From an uncultured Aliiroseovarius sp. (GTDB lineage Bacteria > Pseudomonadota > Alphaproteobacteria > Rhodobacterales > Rhodobacteraceae): a stretch of 64,000 bases of DNA. The notes under the pieces are model-generated. The model searched no databases and was not told the DNA's origin. It saw nothing but the letters and a program-made list of their open reading frames with translations. How positions within the stretch are numbered: position 1 is the stretch's first letter; every line of letters starts with the position of its first letter. The position numbers and the translations under genes were made by a program. Shown here in pieces: positions 24,194-35,955 of the stretch. Where the stretch lies: positions 124,001 to 188,000 of the forward strand of contig NZ_CANMFT010000005.1 of assembly GCF_947497285.1 (NCBI RefSeq), given 5' to 3'.

Positions 24194-25471
24194 TTAGAGC
24201 AGTTCCTTCAGCACCAACGCCATGACACCCGCGCTGTCGACCATGTCCTCGACACCAACCCATTCGTCGGGCTGGTGGGCAAGGTCAAGGATCCCGGGGC
24301 CGTAGGCGATGCAATTCTTGAGCCGCCCAATTCGGTCGATATGTTTCTGGTCATAGGTGCCGGGTGAGACGACATAGGACGGCTGCTGGCCCAGCACTTT
24401 CTCGATGGCGGCAGCGGTGGACGTGACCACGGGGGCATCCTTGTCGGTCATCGTCGGGATAACCTCGTGCATATCGCGGATCTCGTACTCGAAATTGGGC
24501 CGCTCGGCGCGGATGGTTTCGAGCATCCGGTGGACCTCGGCCTTTACCTCGTTCAAATCCTCTTCGATCAGAAAGCGACGGTCGATGATGATGCGGCAGC
24601 GGTCAGCGACACAGGGGGCGGGAAATCCGGTGAAGTCCACGTCTTGTTCAGCCTCGCCGCCATGGATCGAATTGATGTTCAGCGTAGACTGTTTCGCACC
24701 TTCGGGGACGACCGGCATATCGGTGCGTTTGGTGGCGAGAAGCGGGTAAAGATACGTCTCGATCTCTTCCAGCACGGCGCCCATATGGCGGATCGCGCTG
24801 TCGCCTAGGAATGGCATGGACCCATGCGCGATGCGCCCTTTTGTTTCGATCTCGGCCCACCAGACGCCGCGGTGGCCAAGGCAGATGCGGTCTTTATTGA
24901 GCGGTTCGGGGATGATGACGTGTTGCACGCGGTTCGGGTCGAAGTAACCTTTTTCGGCCAGATAGGCGACGCCACCGTATCCGCCGGACTCCTCGTCTGC
25001 CGTTGCGCTGATTTCAACCGCGCCCTTGTGGTTGGGGTAAAGCGCGACGAAGGCTTCCGCCGCAATGATTGAGGCCGCCAGACCGCCCTTCATATCGCAC
25101 GCCCCGCGCCCGTAGATGCGGCCGTCTTCCAACTCGCCGCCGAACGGGTCTTTGGTCCAGCCATGGCCGACTTCGACCACGTCGTGGTGGCTGTTGAAAT
25201 GCACACACTCGCCGGGTGCACCGCCTTCGTGGCGGGCCACGAGGTTCCAACGTGGGTATGTCACGCTGTCGCCAATCGCACCTTCTGCGCGGATCATTTC
25301 CACGGCAAAGCCTGATTTTGCCAGCCGCTCGGCCAGATAGGCGCAGATCGCGCGATAGTTCCTCCCCGGTGGGTTCAGCGTCGGGATGCGGATCAGGTCT
25401 TGGGTCAGCGCGATCAAGTCGTCGCGACGGTTGGTAATCTCAACGAGAAGAGGGTCGTTTTCTTGAGGCAT
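24194..25471 (-). CDS. M20-family deacylase/peptidase (ArgE/DapE-like)
   Basis: 425 residues. Two-zinc M20 enzyme: first metal His in CVHFNSHHDVVEVG with the catalytic Asp two residues later, bridging Asp in YGRGACDMKGGLAASI, catalytic Glu-Glu in ATADEESGGYGG, and the C-terminal His in GILDLAHQPDEWV. The lid domain lies in the middle. Candidates are acetylornithine deacetylase or succinyl-diaminopimelate desuccinylase relatives and N-formyl or N-carbamoyl amino acid hydrolases; the exact substrate is not set. Monocistronic, divergent from the AAA+ locus. Confidence 0.88.
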   Translation of the reverse strand: MPQENDPLLVEITNRRDDLIALTQDLIRIPTLNPPGRNYRAICAYLAERLAKSGFAVEMIRAEGAIGDSVTYPRWNLVARHEGGAPGECVHFNSHHDVVEVGHGWTKDPFGGELEDGRIYGRGACDMKGGLAASIIAAEAFVALYPNHKGAVEISATADEESGGYGGVAYLAEKGYFDPNRVQHVIIPEPLNKDRICLGHRGVWWAEIETKGRIAHGSMPFLGDSAIRHMGAVLEEIETYLYPLLATKRTDMPVVPEGAKQSTLNINSIHGGEAEQDVDFTGFPAPCVADRCRIIIDRRFLIEEDLNEVKAEVHRMLETIRAERPNFEYEIRDMHEVIPTMTDKDAPVVTSTAAAIEKVLGQQPSYVVSPGTYDQKHIDRIGRLKNCIAYGPGILDLAHQPDEWVGVEDMVDSAGVMALVLKELL

Positions 25472-25670: not shown

Positions 25671-26747
25671 ATGTCCAGTTTTGATAAGCAGATTCGTGAA
25701 AGCCAAACACAGGTTCAGGAAGCGCAGTCCAAGATTGCTGAACTGACCACGCGGATCGAAACCGCACGTGCAAAGGCGGAGGCTGGCGAAGATATCTCGA
25801 TCGATATCGAGAACGCGACGCTGGAAGATGTGCACGCCCATACCGAAGCGATGAACGCCAATATCGCCGAGTTGATCATGGGGCTGGACGATGTGACCTC
25901 GGGCTTTTCGCAGGATTTCGACCAGATGCGGTCGAAAACCGGGTGGGAATCCTTTGTCGGGATCTTCTCGAAGGGGAAGTCGGAAAGCATGCGGCAGGAA
26001 CGGATGCGCACCGCGTCCATAGACGACAAGTTGCAAGAGTTGATCGCGCAGTCGGACAGCATCGTGAACCTGCTGGAAGGCCAGTTGGCGATGCTCAATG
26101 AGCAGAAGGAAAAGGTGGGCGCTAACCTGACCACCACGCTGGACGAGCGTGAAATGACGGTGGGCGAACTGGAAGCCCTACGCGCCGAGATCCTTGGTTT
26201 GGACCCCAAGATCATCGAGCTTGAGGGCAAGATTGCCAACGAACAGGACGCCGCCAAGCGCACGCAGCTTGAAACCCAATTGGCCGATCTGAACACGCAG
26301 TACAACGAGATGGTGCAGGAAGAGCAAGTGAAGCTTGCTAAATCGCAGACGCTTGAGCGGTATATCGAGAAAGGCAAGACCTGGGTCGATTCACTGCAAA
26401 ACCAAGCGGCAACGCAGATGGTGCTGATCAACAAGTTGCAGACAGACACCAAGCAGCGCGTGGTGCTGTATGATGCGCTGACCAAGTCGCTGAAGACCGC
26501 GCAGCAGCAGGACGTGGCGCACCGGATCAACGAGATCGGCGTCGAGACAGACAAGGAAGCCCAAGCCGCGATGGCCGCGATTGGCACGGCAACGAACCAG
26601 CGGATGGCCGACATGATGGAAGCCCACGAAGACCAGATGGTCTTTGCCCGCGACGTGCTGGAGGCGAAGGCCAAGGCAGACGAGCGCTTTGCCCGCCGCT
26701 TTGCCGAGATCGTCGAGAAGCACGACAAGAACCTGTATGGGGCTTGA
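25671..26747 (+). CDS. Long coiled-coil protein, first gene of the AAA+/membrane locus
   Basis: 358 residues, soluble and almost wholly alpha-helical. Heptad-like coiled-coil stretches run from residues about 5-50 (KQIRESQTQVQEAQSKIAEL), 110-240 (LDPKIIELEGKIANEQDAA) and 290-350. No signal peptide or membrane segment. I do not recognise a named family with certainty; the length, charge pattern and a YIEKGK...LQNQAATQ segment faintly recall TelA-type toxic-anion-resistance proteins, which are also coiled-coil and often sit near AAA+ ATPases and membrane proteins. The ATG at 25671 has AAGGAG upstream. It opens the nine-gene run ending at 33538. Confidence 0.75.
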   Translation: MSSFDKQIRESQTQVQEAQSKIAELTTRIETARAKAEAGEDISIDIENATLEDVHAHTEAMNANIAELIMGLDDVTSGFSQDFDQMRSKTGWESFVGIFSKGKSESMRQERMRTASIDDKLQELIAQSDSIVNLLEGQLAMLNEQKEKVGANLTTTLDEREMTVGELEALRAEILGLDPKIIELEGKIANEQDAAKRTQLETQLADLNTQYNEMVQEEQVKLAKSQTLERYIEKGKTWVDSLQNQAATQMVLINKLQTDTKQRVVLYDALTKSLKTAQQQDVAHRINEIGVETDKEAQAAMAAIGTATNQRMADMMEAHEDQMVFARDVLEAKAKADERFARRFAEIVEKHDKNLYGA

Positions 26748-26771
26748 GGCCTTTTGCCCGATCGACAGGCC

Positions 26772-26834
26772 GGGCAGCGCCCGACCCTCCCCACGGGAGG
26801 GCGCTTCGCACCCACCCAGGGTCGGGCGCCGCCC
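26772..26834. repeat. Palindromic repeat, copy 1
   Basis: Outer arms GCGCCCGACCCT (26777-26788) and AGGGTCGGGCGC (26818-26829) are perfectly complementary, extended by GGGC/GCCC. An inner hairpin CCCTCCC/GGGAGGG with loop CAC (26785-26801) can form instead. It shares GCGCCCGACCC, GCACCCACCC and CGGGCGC, in that order, with the copy near 30.8 kb. Its position between two co-directional genes, and the second copy in the same locus, fit a dispersed REP/MITE-like intergenic element. Confidence 0.75.
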
Positions 26835-26854
26835 TGAGTTCTACGAGGCAACCT

Positions 26855-27181
26855 ATGGTTAATCGGCATTTTCACTTGGTTGGCGCACACTATACACAGC
26901 GTCAAAGATTGCGTGTCGTATTCTTTGCCGTTGTTGCGCTGCTTATTCTCGGCGCAGTAGTTGCCGGAGGAACTGGCAATGGGCAGTTGTTCGAGTTCTT
27001 TTCCGTCACTACGTTTGTGGGTTTGATCATGGCGAATCTAGTTATTGGGCGTTTTGGTTCTAGACTATTGTTCGTCCTATCAAACTGGATACCTGTGTTG
27101 ACGAGCTATGCAGTCCTCTTGGAACGCTGGCTGGATTCATCGGCGAAGGGACACTCGACAGGAGATCAATCGGATGCCTGA
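26855..27181 (+). CDS. Small three-helix membrane protein of unknown function
   Basis: 108 residues with hydrophobic helices at about 20-39, 46-65 and 70-90; the first 19 residues are basic (HYTQRQRLR). No family recognised. The ATG at 26855 lies just after palindromic repeat copy 1; the frame is open back through the repeat to a TTG overlapping the upstream stop, but that part looks non-coding. Base use is AT-richer than the neighbours (for example the codons ATA, TTA and TCT are frequent), so it may be a later insertion. It overlaps the next gene by eight bases. Confidence 0.6.
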   Translation: MVNRHFHLVGAHYTQRQRLRVVFFAVVALLILGAVVAGGTGNGQLFEFFSVTTFVGLIMANLVIGRFGSRLLFVLSNWIPVLTSYAVLLERWLDSSAKGHSTGDQSDA

Positions 27182-28340
27182 CATCAAAACCTCCGAACGC
27201 ACCTCGGCTGGCTTCGCCCCGCGCGACCATGCGGAGCTGACCGACACGCGGATCACGCGGCGGTATTTCTCGAAGTTCGAGAAGATCACGGCGCATCTGG
27301 CCCGTGTCGCCGGGCAGATGGAGGTTGAGGGGAAGCTCACCCGTGATGAGGTTGACGTGCTGGCGCGCTACCTCATCAAACTAGGCCTTAGCTTCAAGGC
27401 GCTGGCCAACAAGTATCATATGTCCGACAAAGCCTATGGGCTTGGTGCTGCGACGCTGACCTTTGACCGGCGCGACAGCGGGTTTCCGGTCCATGCGGAG
27501 CTTTTACAGATGGCCTCGGACGCTGCGCAGGCGGGGACGCATCTGAAAGGCATGGCCTCGGTCGATGAACTGAAAAGCCAGATGGTCAGCCAGATCGTGG
27601 GCGACCTGACGGTGCCGAAGGATTTGCAATATTCACTGTCCCAGCGGCTCTATTATGAAGAGCTTGCGAAGGGCGATTTGTTCTGGCCGCAGATGCACCC
27701 GGACGTGATCTGGCAGATGAACAAAGGCGAAGGGCGTGATGCGCGTCGCGTCTATCTGGCGCATTGGGCGGTTTATGACAGCGAGGTGAACCTGCCCACT
27801 GTCTATCTGATGGAGCTGGAGGATACCGGCCGCACCGCGCTGCCCAAGGACGAACGCCGCTGGCCGCAAGTGCAGTCGCATTTGATGGCGCAAAGTATGG
27901 CGGGATTGAAACTGGTGACCATTGCCACCGGGTTCGACAAGGATTTCGACGACCTGCACCCCAAGCGCCTGCGCCGGTTCCATGTGGGGCCGATGTATAG
28001 CCATACGTTCACCCAGCAGACCGGCCCGCTGCGCGAGGTGCTGGCCGAGGCGAAAAGCCCGCCCGGTGAAGATTGGGCGTTGGCCTGGACAGTTGAAGAA
28101 CTGAAAAGCCAAAGCGTCAAGGAAGAGAAATCCGGCTGGTTCGGCAAAGTCGAGCGCGAGATTTTTGCACTGGACCCGTTTGCAGGTTCCGGCTCGAACA
28201 TCGGTGCCACCCGGATGGAACGCGCAATCATCATGCCCCAACGTCCGTTTCAGGTGCTTGCTGAAAAAAACCCCGCTGGGTTCCACGACGTGCGTAAATT
28301 TGTTGTCAGCCCCGGTGGCCGGGTGCTGAGTTACCGTTGA
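27174..28340 (+). CDS. Conserved soluble protein of unknown function in the AAA+ locus
   Basis: 388 residues, no signal peptide or membrane segment. I do not recognise the family. Visible features: a charged helical N-terminal region (residues about 20-75, FSKFEKITAHLARVAGQMEV), a conserved-looking WPQMHPDVIW and YLAHWAVYDSEVNLPTVYLMELEDTGR segment around 160-220 and a C-terminal AIIMPQRPFQVL. Start ATG 27174 with AGGAG upstream. Eighteen bases separate it from the AAA+ gene. Codon use is like core genes, so it belongs to the stable part of the operon and is a likely partner of the ATPase. Confidence 0.72.
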   Translation: MPDIKTSERTSAGFAPRDHAELTDTRITRRYFSKFEKITAHLARVAGQMEVEGKLTRDEVDVLARYLIKLGLSFKALANKYHMSDKAYGLGAATLTFDRRDSGFPVHAELLQMASDAAQAGTHLKGMASVDELKSQMVSQIVGDLTVPKDLQYSLSQRLYYEELAKGDLFWPQMHPDVIWQMNKGEGRDARRVYLAHWAVYDSEVNLPTVYLMELEDTGRTALPKDERRWPQVQSHLMAQSMAGLKLVTIATGFDKDFDDLHPKRLRRFHVGPMYSHTFTQQTGPLREVLAEAKSPPGEDWALAWTVEELKSQSVKEEKSGWFGKVEREIFALDPFAGSGSNIGATRMERAIIMPQRPFQVLAEKNPAGFHDVRKFVVSPGGRVLSYR

Positions 28341-28358
28341 TTTAGGAGTGAGACCCAC

Positions 28359-30293
28359 ATGAGCCTGCCTGCCGACTTGATGGAACTTCGCGAGGAAGAA
28401 ATTCGTGCGCATTACGCGGCGGCTGCCGGGCATCTGGATGGGTTTGACCACACGCCCCGGATTGCCAAACCCAAGGAAGCCGCGCCCGCCCCTGAACGCA
28501 GCCCCGGCATCGCCCGCTCGCGTCGGTTTCGCACCACCACGCCGGGTCTGGTGACGCGTTCGACCGCGCGGCCTGAAGGTGTGCATTTGGCCGAACGGAT
28601 CGAGGGATCGGACGGGGACGACCCGCTGATCTCTCCGCTTCAGGCGACTGTTTTGCATGGGCTGCGCCGCGCGATTGCCGTCGCATTGGCAGTGGGCGAG
28701 GGGTTCGCCGAGCAGACTGAACTGGCTGCTCTGCGTCGCGCCAATCTGGAAGGGCGTCTGGGGGCTGACAAGAAAACCGCCTTCTCGGAGCTTCTGACTG
28801 CCGAGGCGCTGATCGTCCTGCATGTATTCGCCAATGCGACCTCATTCCTGTTGGCAGACCACGCCAGCGAGGCCTCGATCGAGGTCGGCGCGGTCGAGGA
28901 AATCCTGACCGACAATGCGCCGCTCGCCCTGAAAGGCGCGCTGTGGGAGTTGGATCAGGAACTTGCGACCTTTGTGACCTCCGAGGACAAGCTGGTCGCG
29001 ACTGTCTTGGCCTTTGTCGAACAGTTGATGGAAAAGGTCGCCCTGCGCGCCCAGACCGCGTCGCATCTTGGCCCCTTCACATCCGCCAATTACCGGGTCG
29101 AAGCGGACGACCTGACGATTTCCGGCTTCACCCCCGCCCGCGCCCATCGCGGGTCCAAGATCACGATGACGTTCAAGAAGCCGAACGAGGTCGTCGGCAA
29201 CCACATCGCGAAATATCAGGCGATGAAGCTGGCCAAGATGCTGATGGCTTATGATTTCGAGCGGAAACTGAACCCGTTTGCGGAACTGGGTGGCTTCATC
29301 TTCACCTTCATGGGCGACGGCAAGCCGGGAACTGGGAAGACAACGCTGATCCAGATGATGGCCGGGCTGATCAATGATTACTGCGCGGTGGCGGGCTATC
29401 CCTTCCGCTATCAGAATTTCGGCATCGACAATATCGACAGCTATCAGGGCAAGTCGGGCCAGAATGCCAAGGCGTTCATCAACAATGTGCTCGACCCCAA
29501 CGTGATCGGCTTTGGCACCGTGGATGACATCGACCAGATCGCGGGCAAGCGGGGGGATCGGCAATCCAGCGCGGGTCAGCAGGAAGTCACGGCGGTTCTG
29601 ATGGAAAGCTTTTCGGGTGCCAATACGGTGGTGCGCGGGAATTGCACCTTCGGCATGTTCTCGAACTACCCAGAGAATGTGGACGACGCCCTGCGCCAAC
29701 GCGCCGGTGCGCGGTTCCTGGTGGACGGGCCACGGACGCGCGAGGACTATATCGACATCCTGCACCTGCTCATGGGCAAGAACCACGCGATCCCGCTGGG
29801 CGACCACGACCTTTACGCAGCGCAAGAGATCAAGTCTGCCGTGGCGCGCAGCTTTGCGGCGCACGCCCGCCCGCAGGAAAACGGGCTTCTGGCCGTTTTT
29901 GATCGTGTGCATGACAAGATCGGCGAGTTGGATGACATCTCCAAAATGGGCACCTATCTGAAAGCAATTCAGGAGGCGGACGAGCGCTTCACTGGCCGGT
30001 CGATCAAGAACATCACCGACGCCGTGAAAGTTCGCGCGATGGACTTTGAATTGCCCGACGAATGGATGGAAAACCCCGAGCTGTTCCTGTTGAAAGACTA
30101 TGACACCAAGAAAGACATGATCGAGGAGCTGCGCGTGCCCATCACCACGGACATGGTGATCCAAGAGGTCAACCGCTACGCCGATTCAGAATTCCGCTAT
30201 GCCGATAAGTCAGACGAAGCCGCCATCGAGGCGATGGTGCGTGACTTTGGCCGTCAGGAAGAGGCGAAGAAGCGGTATTTGGAGGGGAAGTGA
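28359..30293 (+). CDS. AAA+ ATPase with large N-terminal extension
   Basis: 644 residues. Residues 1-300 are an uncharacterised, mostly helical region. The AAA+ core begins near 300: Walker A GDGKPGTGKTT (Lys327), a Walker B-like strand VIGFGTVDDID (Asp389-Asp390, where the classical Glu position is Asp), a sensor-1-like TFGMFSNYPENV and an arginine-finger-like LRQRAGARF. A C-terminal helical part (about 550-644) follows. The ATPase probably remodels or loads a partner, most likely the soluble or coiled-coil proteins encoded beside it. It does not resemble FtsH, Clp, Lon or MoxR closely. The stop is followed directly by the ATG of a small membrane protein. Confidence 0.85.
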   Translation: MSLPADLMELREEEIRAHYAAAAGHLDGFDHTPRIAKPKEAAPAPERSPGIARSRRFRTTTPGLVTRSTARPEGVHLAERIEGSDGDDPLISPLQATVLHGLRRAIAVALAVGEGFAEQTELAALRRANLEGRLGADKKTAFSELLTAEALIVLHVFANATSFLLADHASEASIEVGAVEEILTDNAPLALKGALWELDQELATFVTSEDKLVATVLAFVEQLMEKVALRAQTASHLGPFTSANYRVEADDLTISGFTPARAHRGSKITMTFKKPNEVVGNHIAKYQAMKLAKMLMAYDFERKLNPFAELGGFIFTFMGDGKPGTGKTTLIQMMAGLINDYCAVAGYPFRYQNFGIDNIDSYQGKSGQNAKAFINNVLDPNVIGFGTVDDIDQIAGKRGDRQSSAGQQEVTAVLMESFSGANTVVRGNCTFGMFSNYPENVDDALRQRAGARFLVDGPRTREDYIDILHLLMGKNHAIPLGDHDLYAAQEIKSAVARSFAAHARPQENGLLAVFDRVHDKIGELDDISKMGTYLKAIQEADERFTGRSIKNITDAVKVRAMDFELPDEWMENPELFLLKDYDTKKDMIEELRVPITTDMVIQEVNRYADSEFRYADKSDEAAIEAMVRDFGRQEEAKKRYLEGK

Positions 30294-30671
30294 ATGGGAG
30301 GAGCAGGAGGATTGGGAGGGTTACTTAGTATCCTGATAGTCGCCAGCATTCCGGTGTTCCTCTTGATACACATCGGCTGGTGGATCGGAAAAAACCGCGC
30401 CTCGCGAACCCTCACCTTGCGCGGTGCGCTGCTGGCGGCACTGTTTTTGTTGTTCATCGCATCAGCTATTTATCCTGCTATTCCGTTCTTCGGCAGTCTA
30501 GATGATGGGCGAGAGTTTTCGTTTGAATTTGTGCGCTTTAAGCGCATCATAAGCTTTTGTTTCGCTACCGCTGGTCTATCAGCGTTGATTTCTTTGGCGC
30601 TAGGCTTAACTGCAAGCGAGCCAGAGGCTGAATCGGGTAAGAAGGATAGTCAAGAGGATGCTGTATTATGA
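30294..30671 (+). CDS. Small three-helix membrane protein of unknown function
   Basis: 125 residues; helices at about 10-30, 42-62 and 87-107, with a Gly-rich start (MGGAGGLGGLL) and an acidic tail (EPEAESGKKDSQEDAV). No family recognised. The ATG touches the TGA of the AAA+ gene, and its own TGA overlaps an ATG at 30668. Its base use is AT-richer than the flanking genes (TTA, ATA, AGT codons), and a palindromic repeat copy lies just downstream, so with the gene at 26855 it may be a later arrival in the operon. Confidence 0.62.
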   Translation: MGGAGGLGGLLSILIVASIPVFLLIHIGWWIGKNRASRTLTLRGALLAALFLLFIASAIYPAIPFFGSLDDGREFSFEFVRFKRIISFCFATAGLSALISLALGLTASEPEAESGKKDSQEDAVL

Positions 30672-30778
30672 CCATCTGGATGCTCCTCAAGTCGGCAGAA
30701 AACCCTGAACTCTTTTTTTGGCGCAACTGGCAGCTTGAAAAAGAAACTTTCGATGTTTTGGTTCCACGCGGCAACGCC

Positions 30779-30845
30779 GCGATGCGCCCGACCCGTCCCA
30801 CAGGGCGGGCGCGTTCCGCACCCACCCTCGGGCCGGGCGCATCGC
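30779..30845. repeat. Palindromic repeat, copy 2
   Basis: Arms GCGATGCGCCCGACCC (30779-30794) and GGGCCGGGCGCATCGC (30830-30845) are complementary with one mismatch. It matches copy 1 at 26772-26834 in its core (30784-30840), with four extra bases. The preceding stretch from 30690 is not obviously coding. It sits between a small membrane gene and the next gene, as copy 1 does. Confidence 0.72.
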
Positions 30846-30883
30846 TTTGTAGGCGTCGAACGCCATGCCAAGGGGATCACGTA

Positions 30884-31225
30884 ATGGAAGGCTCATACGG
30901 TTCGGACACAGGCTCGTTTATCGCGAACGCAATTGCTCTGTTGATCTTTGCGACCCTGCCATGGTTCACGGCGCGGTGGACAACGCATCGCGGCGCACGG
31001 TTTTTCTCGGCCCTACCGGGCGTTTTCGCGTTCACAGCGGCCACGACCGTTTGGGCGATTGACGCTGGTCTAAGCATCATTCCACGAGCGCCCGATATGA
31101 CCCACAATTTCGAATTGGCAATCGGCATGTTGATTGGCAACGGCATGCTTTACTTGCTGGTCTGGTCGGTGGTCTTCACCTTCATCCTGCGCCATGGGGC
31201 ATCAAAGCGGAGTGCCAACATATGA
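30884..31225 (+). CDS. Small three-helix membrane protein of unknown function
   Basis: 113 residues with helices at about 12-31, 41-62 and 77-104 and a basic C-terminus (RHGASKRS). No family recognised. The ATG at 30884 has AAGGGGA upstream at normal spacing. The frame is open back to 30668 through the repeat, giving a 185-residue version, but the added part is repeat-derived and has no hydrophobic pattern. Its stop overlaps the ATG of the next gene (ATGA), indicating coupling. Confidence 0.65.
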   Translation: MEGSYGSDTGSFIANAIALLIFATLPWFTARWTTHRGARFFSALPGVFAFTAATTVWAIDAGLSIIPRAPDMTHNFELAIGMLIGNGMLYLLVWSVVFTFILRHGASKRSANI

Positions 31226-32583
31226 AACGCCTCATCCAACGCGGCCTAATGTTTGGCAATCTCATTCGAGTCGACAGCCCGGCGCTGATCGAACGCTATA
31301 ACCGCGCGCTCAAGGGGCTTTCGGGCAAGCAGACGAAGCTGAAAGAATTTCACATCGACGTCTCTGGGTTTTCGCCCGAGATCGGAGAAGAATTCAAAGA
31401 CCCGCTCTACCTCAACCCCAATGGCTGCAACCGGCAGTTCATCATTCTGACGGTGGACCAGAAGAAGGCGCCGCTTTTGAATGCCTTGTTCTCGACCTCG
31501 CGCGGGATTTTGCGGCAGTTCATTGCGGATAACGAGGCGAAGCTTTTCGCGCTGACCGCCCATGATGCGGTGGCGGGTGAACTGATGGACTCGGTCTATG
31601 ACATCTCGGACCCGTCGCGCCTGTTCGACATCCGCAAGATCGTGATCGAAGCCGACACGACCCAAAGCCACGTCAAGAACGCCCGCCTGCTGGCCGACAA
31701 GATCGACCATTTTCAGACCGCGCCAAACGCTTGGTATGACGACGATCTGATTGGCGAGATGATCGAGTTGGCGCGCGAAACGGGCGACGTCACCCGCGTG
31801 CCGGTGGACCTTGGCGTGCAGGAATACGAGCAGGGCAATTTCTGGACCGCGCATTTTGGCGGGCTGTATGTCTTTCGTGATGTGGAAAGTCCGGCGGTGA
31901 TCGTGTCGGGTGATAAAGATCGACTGCCCACGCCGCCTCTGGGCAAGGTTTTGGACACGTCCGAGGCCAACAGGCTGGCCAGTTTCCTGAGCAAGAACGA
32001 TCTGGTCGAACAGGTTGTTCGTGAACGCGGTGACGCGGGGGCCACGATCCTGCGCCAGAAGATGGAGTTCATTCTGGTGGACGCCGCAACGTCTGCCGGG
32101 CTGGATCTGGGTGACATGTCATCGCGCACCCTGCGCCACGTGGCGCAGCGGTTGGGGTCGCATCTGCCCGCAGCCTTCCACGGCTTGGCGGCGATGGTGC
32201 GCTGGGCGGAAGCGGGCGGGCAGTGGCCGCGGATCGACAGCCGTCATCCGGCCTATTTCTATACCCTGCGCGCGCGGCCAGACCACCCGGATCGCGACCT
32301 GATCAACCGCTTGTTGTCCGAGCTTGCGCCGATGGACTTCCGCCAGCTGTTCATCTGCCACAAGGAGCTTTTCTATGCCGCATATGCCACATGGCCGGAC
32401 GAAAAGCGTGAATTTGTGGCAGAATTCCTGCATCGTGACTATATGGCGAACAAGGCCGGTGCGCGCGAAGCGTTGTTCGGCGGGCGCAAAGACCCGATGA
32501 AAGTGCCGCGGACGGCGCGCAAACGGGCGCGTGAGGATATGATCGAGATTGTCGGCCCGTGGGGCGCAGTGAACAGGAGGTAA
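31222..32583 (+). CDS. Conserved soluble protein of unknown function (DUF6638-like)
   Basis: 453 residues, apparently cytosolic. From memory of Rhodobacteraceae annotation it resembles the family listed as DUF6638, but this cannot be checked here. Features: an N-terminal region starting LMFGNLIRVDSPALIERYNRAL, a GNFWTAHFGGLYVFRD centre, a long helical part (about 260-400, LVEQVVRERGDAGATILRQK) and a basic C-terminus (RTARKRAREDM). No enzyme motif seen. Four-base overlap with the upstream membrane gene and two bases before the next gene place it in the AAA+ operon. Confidence 0.75.
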   Translation: MKRLIQRGLMFGNLIRVDSPALIERYNRALKGLSGKQTKLKEFHIDVSGFSPEIGEEFKDPLYLNPNGCNRQFIILTVDQKKAPLLNALFSTSRGILRQFIADNEAKLFALTAHDAVAGELMDSVYDISDPSRLFDIRKIVIEADTTQSHVKNARLLADKIDHFQTAPNAWYDDDLIGEMIELARETGDVTRVPVDLGVQEYEQGNFWTAHFGGLYVFRDVESPAVIVSGDKDRLPTPPLGKVLDTSEANRLASFLSKNDLVEQVVRERGDAGATILRQKMEFILVDAATSAGLDLGDMSSRTLRHVAQRLGSHLPAAFHGLAAMVRWAEAGGQWPRIDSRHPAYFYTLRARPDHPDRDLINRLLSELAPMDFRQLFICHKELFYAAYATWPDEKREFVAEFLHRDYMANKAGAREALFGGRKDPMKVPRTARKRAREDMIEIVGPWGAVNRR

Positions 32584-32585
32584 CG

Positions 32586-32852
32586 ATGGGATTGGTGCGA
32601 CTAGTCATTTTCGGGTTCATAGGGCTTAGCATCGTTTACGTGCTGGTCAGCTTGTATTCCCGCTCGATCCGGTTGGAAAAGCTGGAGGATCAATGGGCCG
32701 AGGAACACCCCGATGGCGATGTGACCGATCGTGACGCGTGGCTGCGCGAAGGGATGGAAGACTATAAGAAAAGCTTCCGGCCCAAGCTGATCCTGCTGGT
32801 GTATGTGGTGCCAACACTCTTTGTTATCCTTTCGCTTGTCCTAATCAACTGA
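32586..32852 (+). CDS. Small two-helix membrane protein
   Basis: 88 residues: helix at about 4-22 (LVRLVIFGFIGLSIVYVLVS), a charged 40-residue middle rich in Asp and Glu (EKLEDQWAEEHPDGDVTDRD) and a helix at 67-86. Similar proteins lie before DUF1523 genes in Rhodobacteraceae and are sometimes wrongly labelled cation/multidrug efflux pump; the size does not support a pump. The start ATG at 32586 has GGAGG upstream, overlapping the end of the previous gene. Confidence 0.72.
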   Translation: MGLVRLVIFGFIGLSIVYVLVSLYSRSIRLEKLEDQWAEEHPDGDVTDRDAWLREGMEDYKKSFRPKLILLVYVVPTLFVILSLVLIN

Positions 32853-32860
32853 GGTTCACT

Positions 32861-33538
32861 ATGCGCCGTATTCGTATCACCATCCGTATCCTGCTCGCGC
32901 TGATCCTGTTTGGCGTGTTTCACTATGTCTTGCCGCAACATGACGTCGTGCGGGTCGTGAACACCTATCAGGAACGGCAGGATTTGGGGGACTGGACGCG
33001 TATCTTCTGGTCGAAGCCGGATGATCAATCGGCCAACCTGATCAACCGTGACGTTCAGTTTGTTCAGACCGTGAAGAAGAAGACCTATCTTCTGGGCTTC
33101 ATCCGCAGCGATGCGGAAAAGGTGATGGTTTACCGCAACGAGGATACGGGGTGGGGATGGCCGTTCTATTTCAAGTTCGACACCGCGAGCTTGCAGACCG
33201 AAGTGGACGATCTGCGGTCCACGCCTGAGAACCCGAAATGGGCTGTGATCACCCACTACGGCTGGCGAAACGAGCTAATTTCGGCGTTCCCGAACGCGGT
33301 GGCCATTCGTCCAGTGACAGGCCCGGATGTGACCATCATCCCGTGGTTCAACATCATGTTTTTCATCGTGCTGGCTGTCATCATCGGCTTTGTGCGCGCG
33401 TTGTGGCGACAGTTCCGCGAACGCTCGATAGATCCGGCGCTGGAAGATGCGGGCGAGGCGTGGGATGCGGTTGATGCCCGTGCAGACAAAGCGCGGGGCC
33501 GGTTCTCGCGCTGGTTGGGGTCTTGGCGCAAGAAGTAA
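32861..33538 (+). CDS. DUF1523-family membrane protein
   Basis: 225 residues. Signal-anchor-like helix (about 8-25), then a periplasmic domain with the family-specific MVYRNEDTGWGWPFYFKFD and ITHYGWR, then a second helix (about 167-187, WFNIMFFIVLAVIIGFVRAL) and a basic cytoplasmic tail. DUF1523 has no known function; the two helices and periplasmic domain suggest an envelope sensor or scaffold. It is the last gene of the AAA+ locus and is followed by a strong terminator. Confidence 0.85.
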   Translation: MRRIRITIRILLALILFGVFHYVLPQHDVVRVVNTYQERQDLGDWTRIFWSKPDDQSANLINRDVQFVQTVKKKTYLLGFIRSDAEKVMVYRNEDTGWGWPFYFKFDTASLQTEVDDLRSTPENPKWAVITHYGWRNELISAFPNAVAIRPVTGPDVTIIPWFNIMFFIVLAVIIGFVRALWRQFRERSIDPALEDAGEAWDAVDARADKARGRFSRWLGSWRKK

Positions 33539-33550
33539 GATCGACATAAA

Positions 33551-33584
33551 AAAACGCCGCGCAGGATATTCTGCGCGGCGTTTT
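33551..33584. terminator. Bidirectional terminator at the end of the AAA+ locus
   Basis: AAAACGCCGCGCAG (33551-33564) pairs perfectly with CTGCGCGGCGTTTT (33571-33584) over a 6-base loop. A and T tracts on both sides let it stop the locus on the + strand and the ALDH16 gene on the minus strand. Confidence 0.9.
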
Positions 33585-33603: not shown

Positions 33604-35955
33604 TTATTCGCCGTAGGGCACCCAGATGGTTTTGACTTCGGTGGCGTGGACCAAGAATTCGCGACCTTCACCTGCTGCCCCGAACCAGTCCCGGGCATTC
33701 GCATTGTTGACCCAGCTGCGTTTCAGGTTCCCCGCGCTTTCGCCTTCGACGATGGCCGAGATGTCTGCGCCCGATTGCGCCCAAACAGCGTCCACACCAA
33801 GGTGGCCCGCCAAGGGCGACGCCAGTTCTGCGTGGCTTCCGGTAACGATGTTCACGACGCCCGCCGGCACGTCCGACGTGTCGAGCACCTGATAGAAATC
33901 GGTCGCGGCCAGCGGGAACGGCTCGCTTGCGGCCAGCACCACGCGGTTGCCCATGGCGATGGCCGGGGCCATCAGGGACACCAGTCCCAGAAGGGGGGCG
34001 TCGTCCGGGCAGAAGCCGCCGATCACGCCGACCGGCTCGTTCATCGCCAGCGCCACGCCGCGCATGGGCACGGGCTTTGCGGCGCCGTCGTATTTGTCCG
34101 CCCATGCGGCATAGGTGAACAGGCGGCTGACGGCTGCCTCAACTTCCTTCCTGCCATTGCGCCCGCCCATCATGGCGTCGATCCGGGCGGCGAATTCCTC
34201 CGCACGAGCCGAGAGGTTCTCGCCGACATAATAAAGGATCTGCGCGCGCAGGTGTCCGGTGGTCTTGGACCAGCCGGCGGCCGCGTGCGCAGCCTCAACC
34301 GCGTTGCGGATGTCCTTGCGGTTGGCGATGCCGACATGGCCCAGTAGGTCGCCCTGTTTTGACCAAACCGCTTGGCTGTAACCACCATCGGGCCGCGCCT
34401 GTTTGCCGCCGATGTAGAATTTCGCGGTGCGGTCGAGCGCATCAACTTTCGCCTCTTTCGGGGCGGCAAAGGCGGCGATGGGTTTCAACGACTGCGCCTT
34501 GGCGCGCGGCTTGGTGTAGGTTTGCAAGCCTTCCCAGCCCCCTTCGCGACCAAACCCGCTTTCGCGCACGCCACCAAACCCGGCGGCCGCATCAAACATG
34601 TTGGTGCCGTTCACCCAGACCACGCCAGCCGCCAGCTTGGGTGCGATGTCGAGGGTCAGGTTGACGTTTTCGCTCCACACCGTGGCGGCCAGACCGTAAC
34701 GGGTGTTGTTGGCAATCTCGACGGCCTCGGATGGGGTGCGGAAGGTTGTGGCGACCAGAACCGGGCCGAAGATTTCTTCCTGCATCAGCATGGACGCCGA
34801 CGACAGGCCGGTGATCAGGGTGGGCGGGTAAAAGCAGCCTGTGTCCGGGATCGGGCAGGGGGCTTGGTAAAGTTCGCCGTCACTTGCGCCCGCCTCGACC
34901 AGCTTCGTGATTTGCGCGTGCTGAACAGGGTCCACCACGGCGCCCACGTCAATGGATTTGTCCAGCGGATCGCCCATGCGCAACTTGTCCATCCGAGCCT
35001 TGAGCTTGGCATAGAAACGGTCGGCGATGCCTTCCTGCACGATCAGGCGCGAGCCTGCACAGCAGACCTGACCCTGATTGAACCAGATTGCGTCGACCAG
35101 ACCTTCGACCGCTGAATCCAGATCGGCGTCGTCAAACACGATGTAGGGCGACTTGCCCCCCAGTTCCAATGTCAGGGACTTGCCCGACCCTGCCGTTTCG
35201 CGGCGGATCACCCGGCCAACTTCGGTTGAGCCGGTGAAGGCGATCTTGTCGATATCCTCATGCGTCACAATGGCTTCGCCTACGCGCCCGTCGCCGGTAA
35301 CGATGTTGACCACGCCCTTGGGCAGTCCGGCCTCGTCGCAGATTTGCGCAAACAGAAGGGCGGTCAGCGACGTGTATTCGGCGGGCTTCAGAACCACGGT
35401 GTTGCCCATCGCAATCGCAGGCGCGATTTTCCATGACAGCATGAGCAGCGGGAAATTCCACGGGATGATCTGGCCGCAAACGCCCAGCGCCTCACGGTCG
35501 GGAAGCTCGGCGTCTTGCAACTGCGCCATGCCCGCGTGGTAATAGAAATGGCGCGCGACCAGCGGAATGTCGATGTCGCGGCTTTCGCGGATGGGTTTAC
35601 CATTATCCAGCGTTTCCAGCACCGCAAACAGCCGCGAATGCTTTTGGACCAAACGCGCCAGAGCATAGAGGTATTTCGCTCGTTCGTGGCCCGAAAGTGC
35701 CGCCCATTTGCGCTGCGCCTTGCGGGCGGCGGTGACGGCAGTGTCCACATCGTCAGGTGTGGCCTGCGTGACCTGCGCCAGCACTTCGCCATTGGCGGGG
35801 TTGCGGGTGGCAAACGTGTCACCAACACCAGTCATCCGCCCGCCGATATACAGACCAAACTGGCCCTTGCGTTCGGCAATCCAGCCCAAGGCTTCCTTCG
35901 CGCTTTCCGGGGCGAGGCCATAATCCATCGTGTCAAAGATTTCTTTCACGGTCAT
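33604..35955 (-). CDS. ALDH16-type tandem-domain aldehyde dehydrogenase
   Basis: 783 residues. The N-terminal domain (about 1-490) is a complete NAD+-dependent aldehyde dehydrogenase: PWNFP (Asn167), LELGGKSP (Glu264) and FNQGQVCCAGSR (Cys298). The C-terminal domain (about 500-783) is a second, shortened ALDH-like fold (EPVGVIGGFCPDDAPLL, PAIAMGNRVVL) with no catalytic Cys or Glu motif. This is the layout of ALDH16; bacterial members, including one from the rhodobacteraceal genus Loktanella, keep the Cys in domain 1. It lies ten bases after deoC and probably oxidises the acetaldehyde formed there, or another aldehyde from that pathway. Confidence 0.9.
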   Translation of the reverse strand: MTVKEIFDTMDYGLAPESAKEALGWIAERKGQFGLYIGGRMTGVGDTFATRNPANGEVLAQVTQATPDDVDTAVTAARKAQRKWAALSGHERAKYLYALARLVQKHSRLFAVLETLDNGKPIRESRDIDIPLVARHFYYHAGMAQLQDAELPDREALGVCGQIIPWNFPLLMLSWKIAPAIAMGNTVVLKPAEYTSLTALLFAQICDEAGLPKGVVNIVTGDGRVGEAIVTHEDIDKIAFTGSTEVGRVIRRETAGSGKSLTLELGGKSPYIVFDDADLDSAVEGLVDAIWFNQGQVCCAGSRLIVQEGIADRFYAKLKARMDKLRMGDPLDKSIDVGAVVDPVQHAQITKLVEAGASDGELYQAPCPIPDTGCFYPPTLITGLSSASMLMQEEIFGPVLVATTFRTPSEAVEIANNTRYGLAATVWSENVNLTLDIAPKLAAGVVWVNGTNMFDAAAGFGGVRESGFGREGGWEGLQTYTKPRAKAQSLKPIAAFAAPKEAKVDALDRTAKFYIGGKQARPDGGYSQAVWSKQGDLLGHVGIANRKDIRNAVEAAHAAAGWSKTTGHLRAQILYYVGENLSARAEEFAARIDAMMGGRNGRKEVEAAVSRLFTYAAWADKYDGAAKPVPMRGVALAMNEPVGVIGGFCPDDAPLLGLVSLMAPAIAMGNRVVLAASEPFPLAATDFYQVLDTSDVPAGVVNIVTGSHAELASPLAGHLGVDAVWAQSGADISAIVEGESAGNLKRSWVNNANARDWFGAAGEGREFLVHATEVKTIWVPYGE

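Follow-up and report, generated by a model that had tools for sequence, protein, structure and literature searches.

What does a run of nine same-strand genes with an AAA ATPase among them do, and do the genes form a single unit? The locus in question occupies positions 25671 to 33538 of the window, by which we mean the whole 64,000-nucleotide stretch analysed here, from an uncultured Aliiroseovarius sp. whose assembly comprises 3.37 Mb in 21 contigs. We label its nine open reading frames (ORFs), all on the plus strand, g1 to g9 in order of position. A first-pass annotation had treated them as one set, and this does not hold. The nine-gene unit is a composite, and its conserved part is a module of four genes: g1 (25671..26747), a coiled-coil protein of 358 residues; g3 (27174..28340), a soluble protein of 388 residues without a Pfam family; g4 (28359..30293), a classical AAA ATPase of 644 residues; and g7 (31222..32583), a soluble DUF6638 protein (PF20343) of 453 residues. 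The genes g2, g5 and g6 are replaceable local genes, while g8 and g9 are a separate pair that is not part of this core. Judged by a match to the ATPase, 162 of 292 genomes of the order have the four-gene module, for which the literature searched records no function.

The module emerges from 99 sequences of more than 9 kb, which we searched with iterated profiles of all nine proteins. They comprise the window, 20 genome regions, two records from a plasmid collection and 76 loci, which are the best 80 of 529 relatives less four that were too short; keeping the best 80 biases the sample to Alphaproteobacteria. Three places are represented twice among the 99 (L063/L099, L068/L106, L080/L120), and the E-values of these searches refer to small ORF sets. 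In 97 of the 99 sequences, Rhizobiales and Vibrio among them, the genes g1, g3, g4 and g7 have a common order and strand. The exceptions are L125, where the contig start cuts the locus, and L092 (Roseovarius), whose available sequence contains no g7; in L086 and L111 one core gene is split in two pieces. Relatives of g8 are found in 65 sequences, of g9 in 70 and of g5 in one other locus (L082), and the iterated profiles of g2 and g6 find no relative in the other 98. Whether the genes stay together in other genomes, a point that the first-pass annotation had raised itself, thus has a split answer: the core does, g2, g5 and g6 do not.

We call loci with g9 Rhodobacterales-type and loci with a DUF2333 gene Rhizobiales-type, although a few g9 loci belong to other alphaproteobacteria (Roseibium, Hellea and Aestuariispira among them). 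The g1 protein is 68-83% identical to that of the window in Rhodobacterales-type loci, 42-44% in Rhizobiales-type loci and 36% in Vibrio. Vibrio parahaemolyticus carries a bare core, whose DUF6638 protein reaches 201.6 bits; the annotation of V. vulnificus shows the same arrangement of genes. A profile search also recovers all four core genes, in order and at low similarity, in a distantly related genome from a different class of the phylum (E-values in a small ORF set of 1e-12 for g1, 3e-9 for g3, 3e-66 for g4 and 1e-48 for g7). The core set travels together in many marine and soil bacteria. In a pattern search of a viral collection, one of 48 matches, a possibly viral contig of 359 kb (L220), encodes a relative, and all four core genes are present there. 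Two side observations concern these outlying loci. In the distant-class locus (L177:4752-7391), further ORFs follow g7, some of them membrane-anchored by eye. A genome outside the window's class (L066, G341) has a Rhodobacterales-type locus including g8 and g9, which suggests that the whole set was transferred horizontally.

Within the order the ATPase and DUF6638 are either both there or both missing. The ATPase gives one match per genome in 161 of the 162 positives; in a class-wide sample it matches 5 of 289 genomes, four of the five from the window's family, and in a sample of another class 2 of 369. Matches to DUF6638 are present in 26 of 398 genomes sampled across the phylum, and in 89 of 149 within the order. 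When the two are compared by eye, both are present in 89 of the 149 order genomes, neither in 60, and none is discordant; 40 of these 60 DUF6638 negatives are taken to belong to the same draw as the fully listed DUF1523 search. In one genome (G123) the AAA and DUF6638 genes are both fragmented, by decay or assembly.

The pair at the end of the locus behaves differently. The small g8 protein (32586..32852) has two predicted membrane helices and is the neighbour of g9 (32861..33538), a DUF1523 protein (PF07509) as the first-pass annotation had said, matching at 222.6 bits over profile positions 1-176 of 176, with predicted helices at residues 6-24 and 157-175 and about 130 residues between them. 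DUF1523 occurs independently of the core genes: of 149 order genomes, 143 have it. Among 20 core-less genomes g9 is present in all 20, and g8 lies beside it in 18. Four of these (L222, L223, L230, L240) have the neighbours seen in the window, a peptidase gene upstream and an aldehyde dehydrogenase and a deoC-like gene downstream, and no core between them; we assigned these three names from ORF translations. The distance from the peptidase gene to g8 is about 70 to 530 bp in these four genomes and about 7 kb in the window, and in two of them (L223, L240) a small hydrophobic ORF lies between. These sites, with peptidase, g8 and g9 in place, mark the core and its cargo as a presence/absence module beside a persistent g8-g9 pair. 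They are natural empty sites for comparison. We have therefore dropped the idea of a nine-gene envelope operon, since g8 and g9 are found without the core and DUF1523 is almost universal in the order.

In Rhizobiales-type loci the gene after g7 encodes a DUF2333 protein and not g8-g9. Across 96 distinct loci, g9 is present in 68, DUF2333 in 25, neither in 3 and both in none. In 93 of the 96, the core is thus followed by a protein of DUF1523 or DUF2333 that has predicted membrane helices.

Which of the core proteins can be assigned to a known family? By its sequence, g4 is a classical AAA ATPase. PF00004 matches residues 321-454 at 44.8 bits against a cut-off of 21.2, behind a long N-terminal part, as the first-pass annotation had described. 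It contains the Walker A motif GKPGTGKT, a Walker B with Asp-Asp, a pore-loop-like SYQGKS and the second region of homology, NYPENVDDALRQRAGAR. The nearest solved structures to the g4 profile (141 sequences, E ≤ 1e-5) are VCP-like, AFG2, Cdc48 and proteasomal ATPases. The alignment (profile positions 325-452) runs from Walker A to where the second region of homology begins, and Walker A, the YxGxS stretch, the Asp-Asp and the start of the second region fall on the matching stretches of the solved ATPases. The likeness to classical AAA ATPases thus lies in Walker A, the pore-loop position and the start of the second region. The differences are the single AAA module, the roughly 300 N-terminal residues, for which Pfam has no family, the fixed neighbours g1, g3 and g7, and the Walker B motif. 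Classical AAA ATPases usually carry a Glu after the Walker B Asp, a residue that does not enter the PF00004 cut-off. In g4 this Glu is replaced by Asp (D389 D390) in 20 of 20 members, the one from the distant class included, which bears out the Asp-Asp motif noted in the first-pass annotation. By analogy, it suggests a slowed or switch-like ATP turnover.

The coiled-coil protein g1 raises the question whether the locus could be a divergent branch of a known stress system, either TelA/Ter or phage shock, in which PspA or ESCRT-III proteins are paired with an AAA ATPase. The first-pass annotation had named Ter/TelA among its examples. TelA (PF05816) gives no match for the window g1 at E ≤ 1, and TelA, PspA and Snf7 are absent among 25 of 34 families listed for 35 g1 relatives. 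Profile comparison with hhalign gives TelA a probability of 0.6% (35 versus 4 sequences), 10.7% (96 versus 22) and 17.3% after column filtering. There is a weak but suggestive profile likeness: both are long helical proteins with a W-motif followed by helices, and a stretch of 146 columns around that motif aligns in register with a score of 31.6. This exceeds 20 column shuffles (12-17) and reversed profiles (16-22). Circular permutations that keep the stretch whole score 31.6-33.0, and those that break it 19.7-28.8. However, reversed PspA scores 28.1 against g1, which shows that coiled coils by themselves produce scores of about this magnitude. The likeness of g1 to TelA is below any accepted threshold, and we do not accept TelA as a parent of g1, the probability being at most 17% (rounded, with unpermuted profiles) and the score near the noise set by reversed PspA. 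PspA was rejected as a parent of g1, at 5.5% against 8.6% for its own reversal.

TelA is found in 10 of 10 congeneric genomes searched, the source genome included, where it is encoded elsewhere than at the locus. PspA_IM30 (PF04012) has no match at E ≤ 0.001 in the source genome; the same holds for 18 of 20 further congeners that were searched, some of which have incomplete genomes. Pfam finds no PspA_IM30 or Ter family among the nine locus proteins. AAA ATPases have been reported near bacterial PspA (PMC11237479), and what Vps4/ESCRT-III and these neighbourhoods share with our locus is the arrangement only, a classical AAA protein beside a coiled coil, expected at membranes. PspA_IM30 and Snf7 are not listed for g1, and g3 and g7 have no counterpart in the portion of PMC11237479 considered here. 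We regard descent from one of these stress systems as very improbable.

The first-pass annotation had described two large soluble proteins without recognised domains; this is true of g3, but g7 matches DUF6638 over profile positions 1-439 of 439 at 697.8 bits. Both g7 and g9 are therefore full-length members of Pfam families, each of them a family of 'unknown function', and DUF6638 is not mentioned in the literature searched, in which four papers name DUF1523 and one names DUF2333. The AlphaFold2 models of g3 and g7 are confident (mean predicted local distance difference test score 90.9 for g3 and 87.0 for g7). Neither model has a Foldseek match at E ≤ 0.001, and a second look gave low-Z rows only. 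Kinship between g3 and g7 themselves is unsupported (hhalign probability 0.2%). Pfam, NCBIfam and PADLOC name no system for the core, and the literature searches gave no description that we recognised as this locus. The earlier statement that the set matches no described system therefore stands for the core. The module is filed under no named system, and g4, g7 and g9 under classical AAA, DUF6638 and DUF1523, respectively.

What varies around this constant core? The variable genes sit in two slots, the g1-g3 and g4-g7 gaps, in which we called cargo ORFs by length and without annotation. Among 68 g9-type loci, a gap of at least 150 nucleotides (nt) separates g1 and g3 in 39, g3 and g4 in 9, and g4 and g7 in 57. 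ORFs of at least 60 residues with at least two hydrophobic helices lie on the operon strand of the g1-g3 slot in 22 of the 68 loci and of the g4-g7 slot in 26; on the opposite strand the same class occurs in 0 and 0. In 26 loci without g9 such operon-strand ORFs are found in 0 (g1-g3) and 2 (g4-g7). A first orientation count had scored the minus strand as the longer one in 8 of 53 g9-type g4-g7 gaps. Of these eight, at least four (L071, L073, L076, L158) were cut by a narrow ATG-only search range and hold long plus-strand ORFs; in loci without g9 this count gave 4 plus, 4 minus and 3 ties.

The slots of the window itself hold small membrane proteins only, g2 (26855..27181; 108 residues, three predicted membrane helices) in the first, and g5 (30294..30671; 125 residues, three predicted helices) and g6 (likely start 30884, to 31225; 113 residues, two predicted helices) in the second. 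They also hold two copies of a dispersed palindromic intergenic repeat, one in the g1-g2 gap (26757..26842) and one in the g5-g6 gap (30776..30840), the latter inside a long ORF that starts at 30668. Five genomes of the window's genus (the window, L070, L071, L205 and L206) have no common cargo except for one family shared by L071 and L205. The g4 protein of L205 is 97% identical to that of the window, yet the slot contents differ. Such swaps between near-identical cores make the role of the slot genes directly testable. Over all loci, the 150 cargo ORFs of at least 75 residues, some of them likely spurious, fall into 93 families, 75 of which are singletons.

This turnover is what one would expect if the locus were a conflict chassis, an anti-phage or similar system whose core senses or regulates and whose slots hold interchangeable toxic or protective effectors, such as small membrane proteins, nucleases, HEPN, Fic or Abi-like proteins. 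The patchy presence of the core and part of its cargo fit this picture. We hand-picked 63 larger cargo proteins from the listed cargo, longer and mostly not small membrane proteins, 46 of them from g9-type loci, 16 from loci without g9 and one from L205. Pfam finds nine DUF559 and two DUF2971 proteins among them, one each of PIN_10, AbiJ_NTD4, Fic, DUF433 and a thioredoxin-like protein, and weak matches to HNH and DUF4145. At least 10 of the 63 are hit by PADLOC models; the figure is 0 for 63 flank ORFs of comparable length, which were drawn at random with at most one per locus and compared by PADLOC only. The figure of at least 10, counted per model and not as a union, is made up of seven matches to PDC-S37 and of L095, L151 and L110, which have no PDC-S37 match. 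However, the seven represent one model and are probably DUF559 genes, which occur mostly in Rhizobiales-type loci, and the majority of the 63 have no Pfam match. The core gives weak generic PADLOC matches only, to LmuB for the coiled coil and to TRIP13/IetA for the AAA protein. It is slow-evolving, nearly always matched once per genome and found again and again in a few chromosomal neighbourhoods, unlike typical defence genes. On balance, we consider a conflict system unlikely. Separately, one slot protein of L070 (10103-10813; G012) resembles HEPN/DUF4145 at E 0.0025, below the cut-off, and overlaps the g4 stop by 4 nt.

Alternatively, the slots may be a hotspot for neutral or selfish genes in an operon with an unrelated job, for example protein quality control, where inserts persist at tolerant junctions. 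The palindromic repeats inside the window slots would fit such a hotspot, as would an IS4-family transposase and a DUF559-type gene in the g4-g7 slot of one Sinorhizobium. The cargo of g9-type g4-g7 slots also has a lower G+C content than g4 (0.525 versus 0.605). The strict strand bias of the helix-bearing ORFs and the many cargo ORFs that abut g4 argue against passive insertion. So does a relative of the commonest small membrane cargo, seen by eye beside g8-g9 in the core-less genome L221. We therefore judge the hotspot to be distinctly unlikely, more so than the conflict system.

How, then, might the module work? Tentatively, we propose an ATP-driven remodelling machine that acts on a coiled-coil partner near the inner membrane and carries exchangeable accessory genes. 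By analogy, g4 would assemble into a hexameric ring and thread or pull its partner by way of the aromatic pore loop. What holds for classical AAA proteins in general suggests that the pore loop threads a protein and that the Asp slows hydrolysis. The coiled-coil protein g1 may be the obligate substrate or adaptor of g4, an assembly that g4 takes apart as Vps4 does ESCRT-III, and g3 and g7 would be co-subunits that control loading. The machine would sit at the inner face of the inner membrane, with the neighbouring membrane proteins as anchors or inputs and the slot proteins as lineage-specific accessory or output parts. Among five proteins compared across 68 loci, g1 and g4 evolve most slowly, with mean pairwise distances of 0.24 and 0.26; g3 and g7 both stand at 0.38 and g9 at 0.50. 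We read the slow pace of g1 and g4 as a sign of close working contact. Conservation within g1 peaks at about residues 225-295. Pairwise distances correlate at 0.85 for g3-g7, 0.74 for g4-g7 and 0.61 for g4-g9; for the aldehyde dehydrogenase next to the locus, only 10 loci are usable.

Of the 56 g9-type loci with g4-g7 cargo, 32 have an ORF whose start falls in the range from 10 nt before to 40 nt after the g4 stop. Overlaps of exactly 4 nt with that stop, found in 17 of the 56 and including some ORFs that are probably spurious, having been called by length, fit the expectation for operon members. Should the slot genes prove to be outputs of this machine, the locus would join an ATPase core that evolves slowly to partners that change fast, which would be unusual. 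That a constant four-protein AAA engine of Proteobacteria, most of whose protein families are uncharacterised, runs interchangeable, co-translated outputs in two exchange slots, as a modular envelope or conflict system, is somewhat more doubtful than the remodelling machine as such.

Several points weigh against the remodelling machine, in addition to the spurious overlaps. That g1 is the substrate of g4 is a proposal from co-conservation. The models of g3 and g7 reveal by Foldseek no fold that would explain a co-factor role. The envelope link that the first-pass annotation had proposed is still an inference: a helix-bearing protein nearly always follows the core, but DUF1523 is also present in most core-less genomes of the order, which makes the link looser than first thought and perhaps no more than positional. 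In both Vibrio records, mfd directly follows g7.

The layout of the locus agrees in part with the earlier description. The nine plus-strand ORFs follow a divergent M20-type peptidase gene (24194-25471, minus strand) and face a convergent aldehyde dehydrogenase gene (33604-35955, minus strand). A terminator scan finds a hairpin of 14 pairs with A/T flanks between the convergent genes (33551..33584), which is probably a bidirectional terminator common to g9 and its convergent neighbour, as expected from the terminator noted earlier; in the overall scan, terminator- and promoter-like sites were not more numerous than in shuffled sequence. Of the three three-helix proteins and the one two-helix protein reported, hydropathy retains three helices in g2 and g5 and gives two in g6 and g8; g9 also has two and g4 one borderline segment. 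Pfam names three of the nine proteins (g4, g7 and g9) and gives no match above cut-off for g1, g2, g3, g5, g6 and g8. NCBIfam and PADLOC return weak generic matches only for the nine, and PHROGs three for g4 (clamp loader and two unknown families) and a weak one for g2.

The tight gene spacing described in the first-pass annotation is not uniform. It breaks down in two places, both with a copy of the palindromic repeat: g1 and g2 lie about 107 nt apart, and with a g6 start at 30884 the g5-g6 gap is about 212 nt. The repeat is found at five places in the genome at E ≤ 0.001, the query included. Translated strings that resemble it by eye also occur in cargo gaps of L089 and L206.

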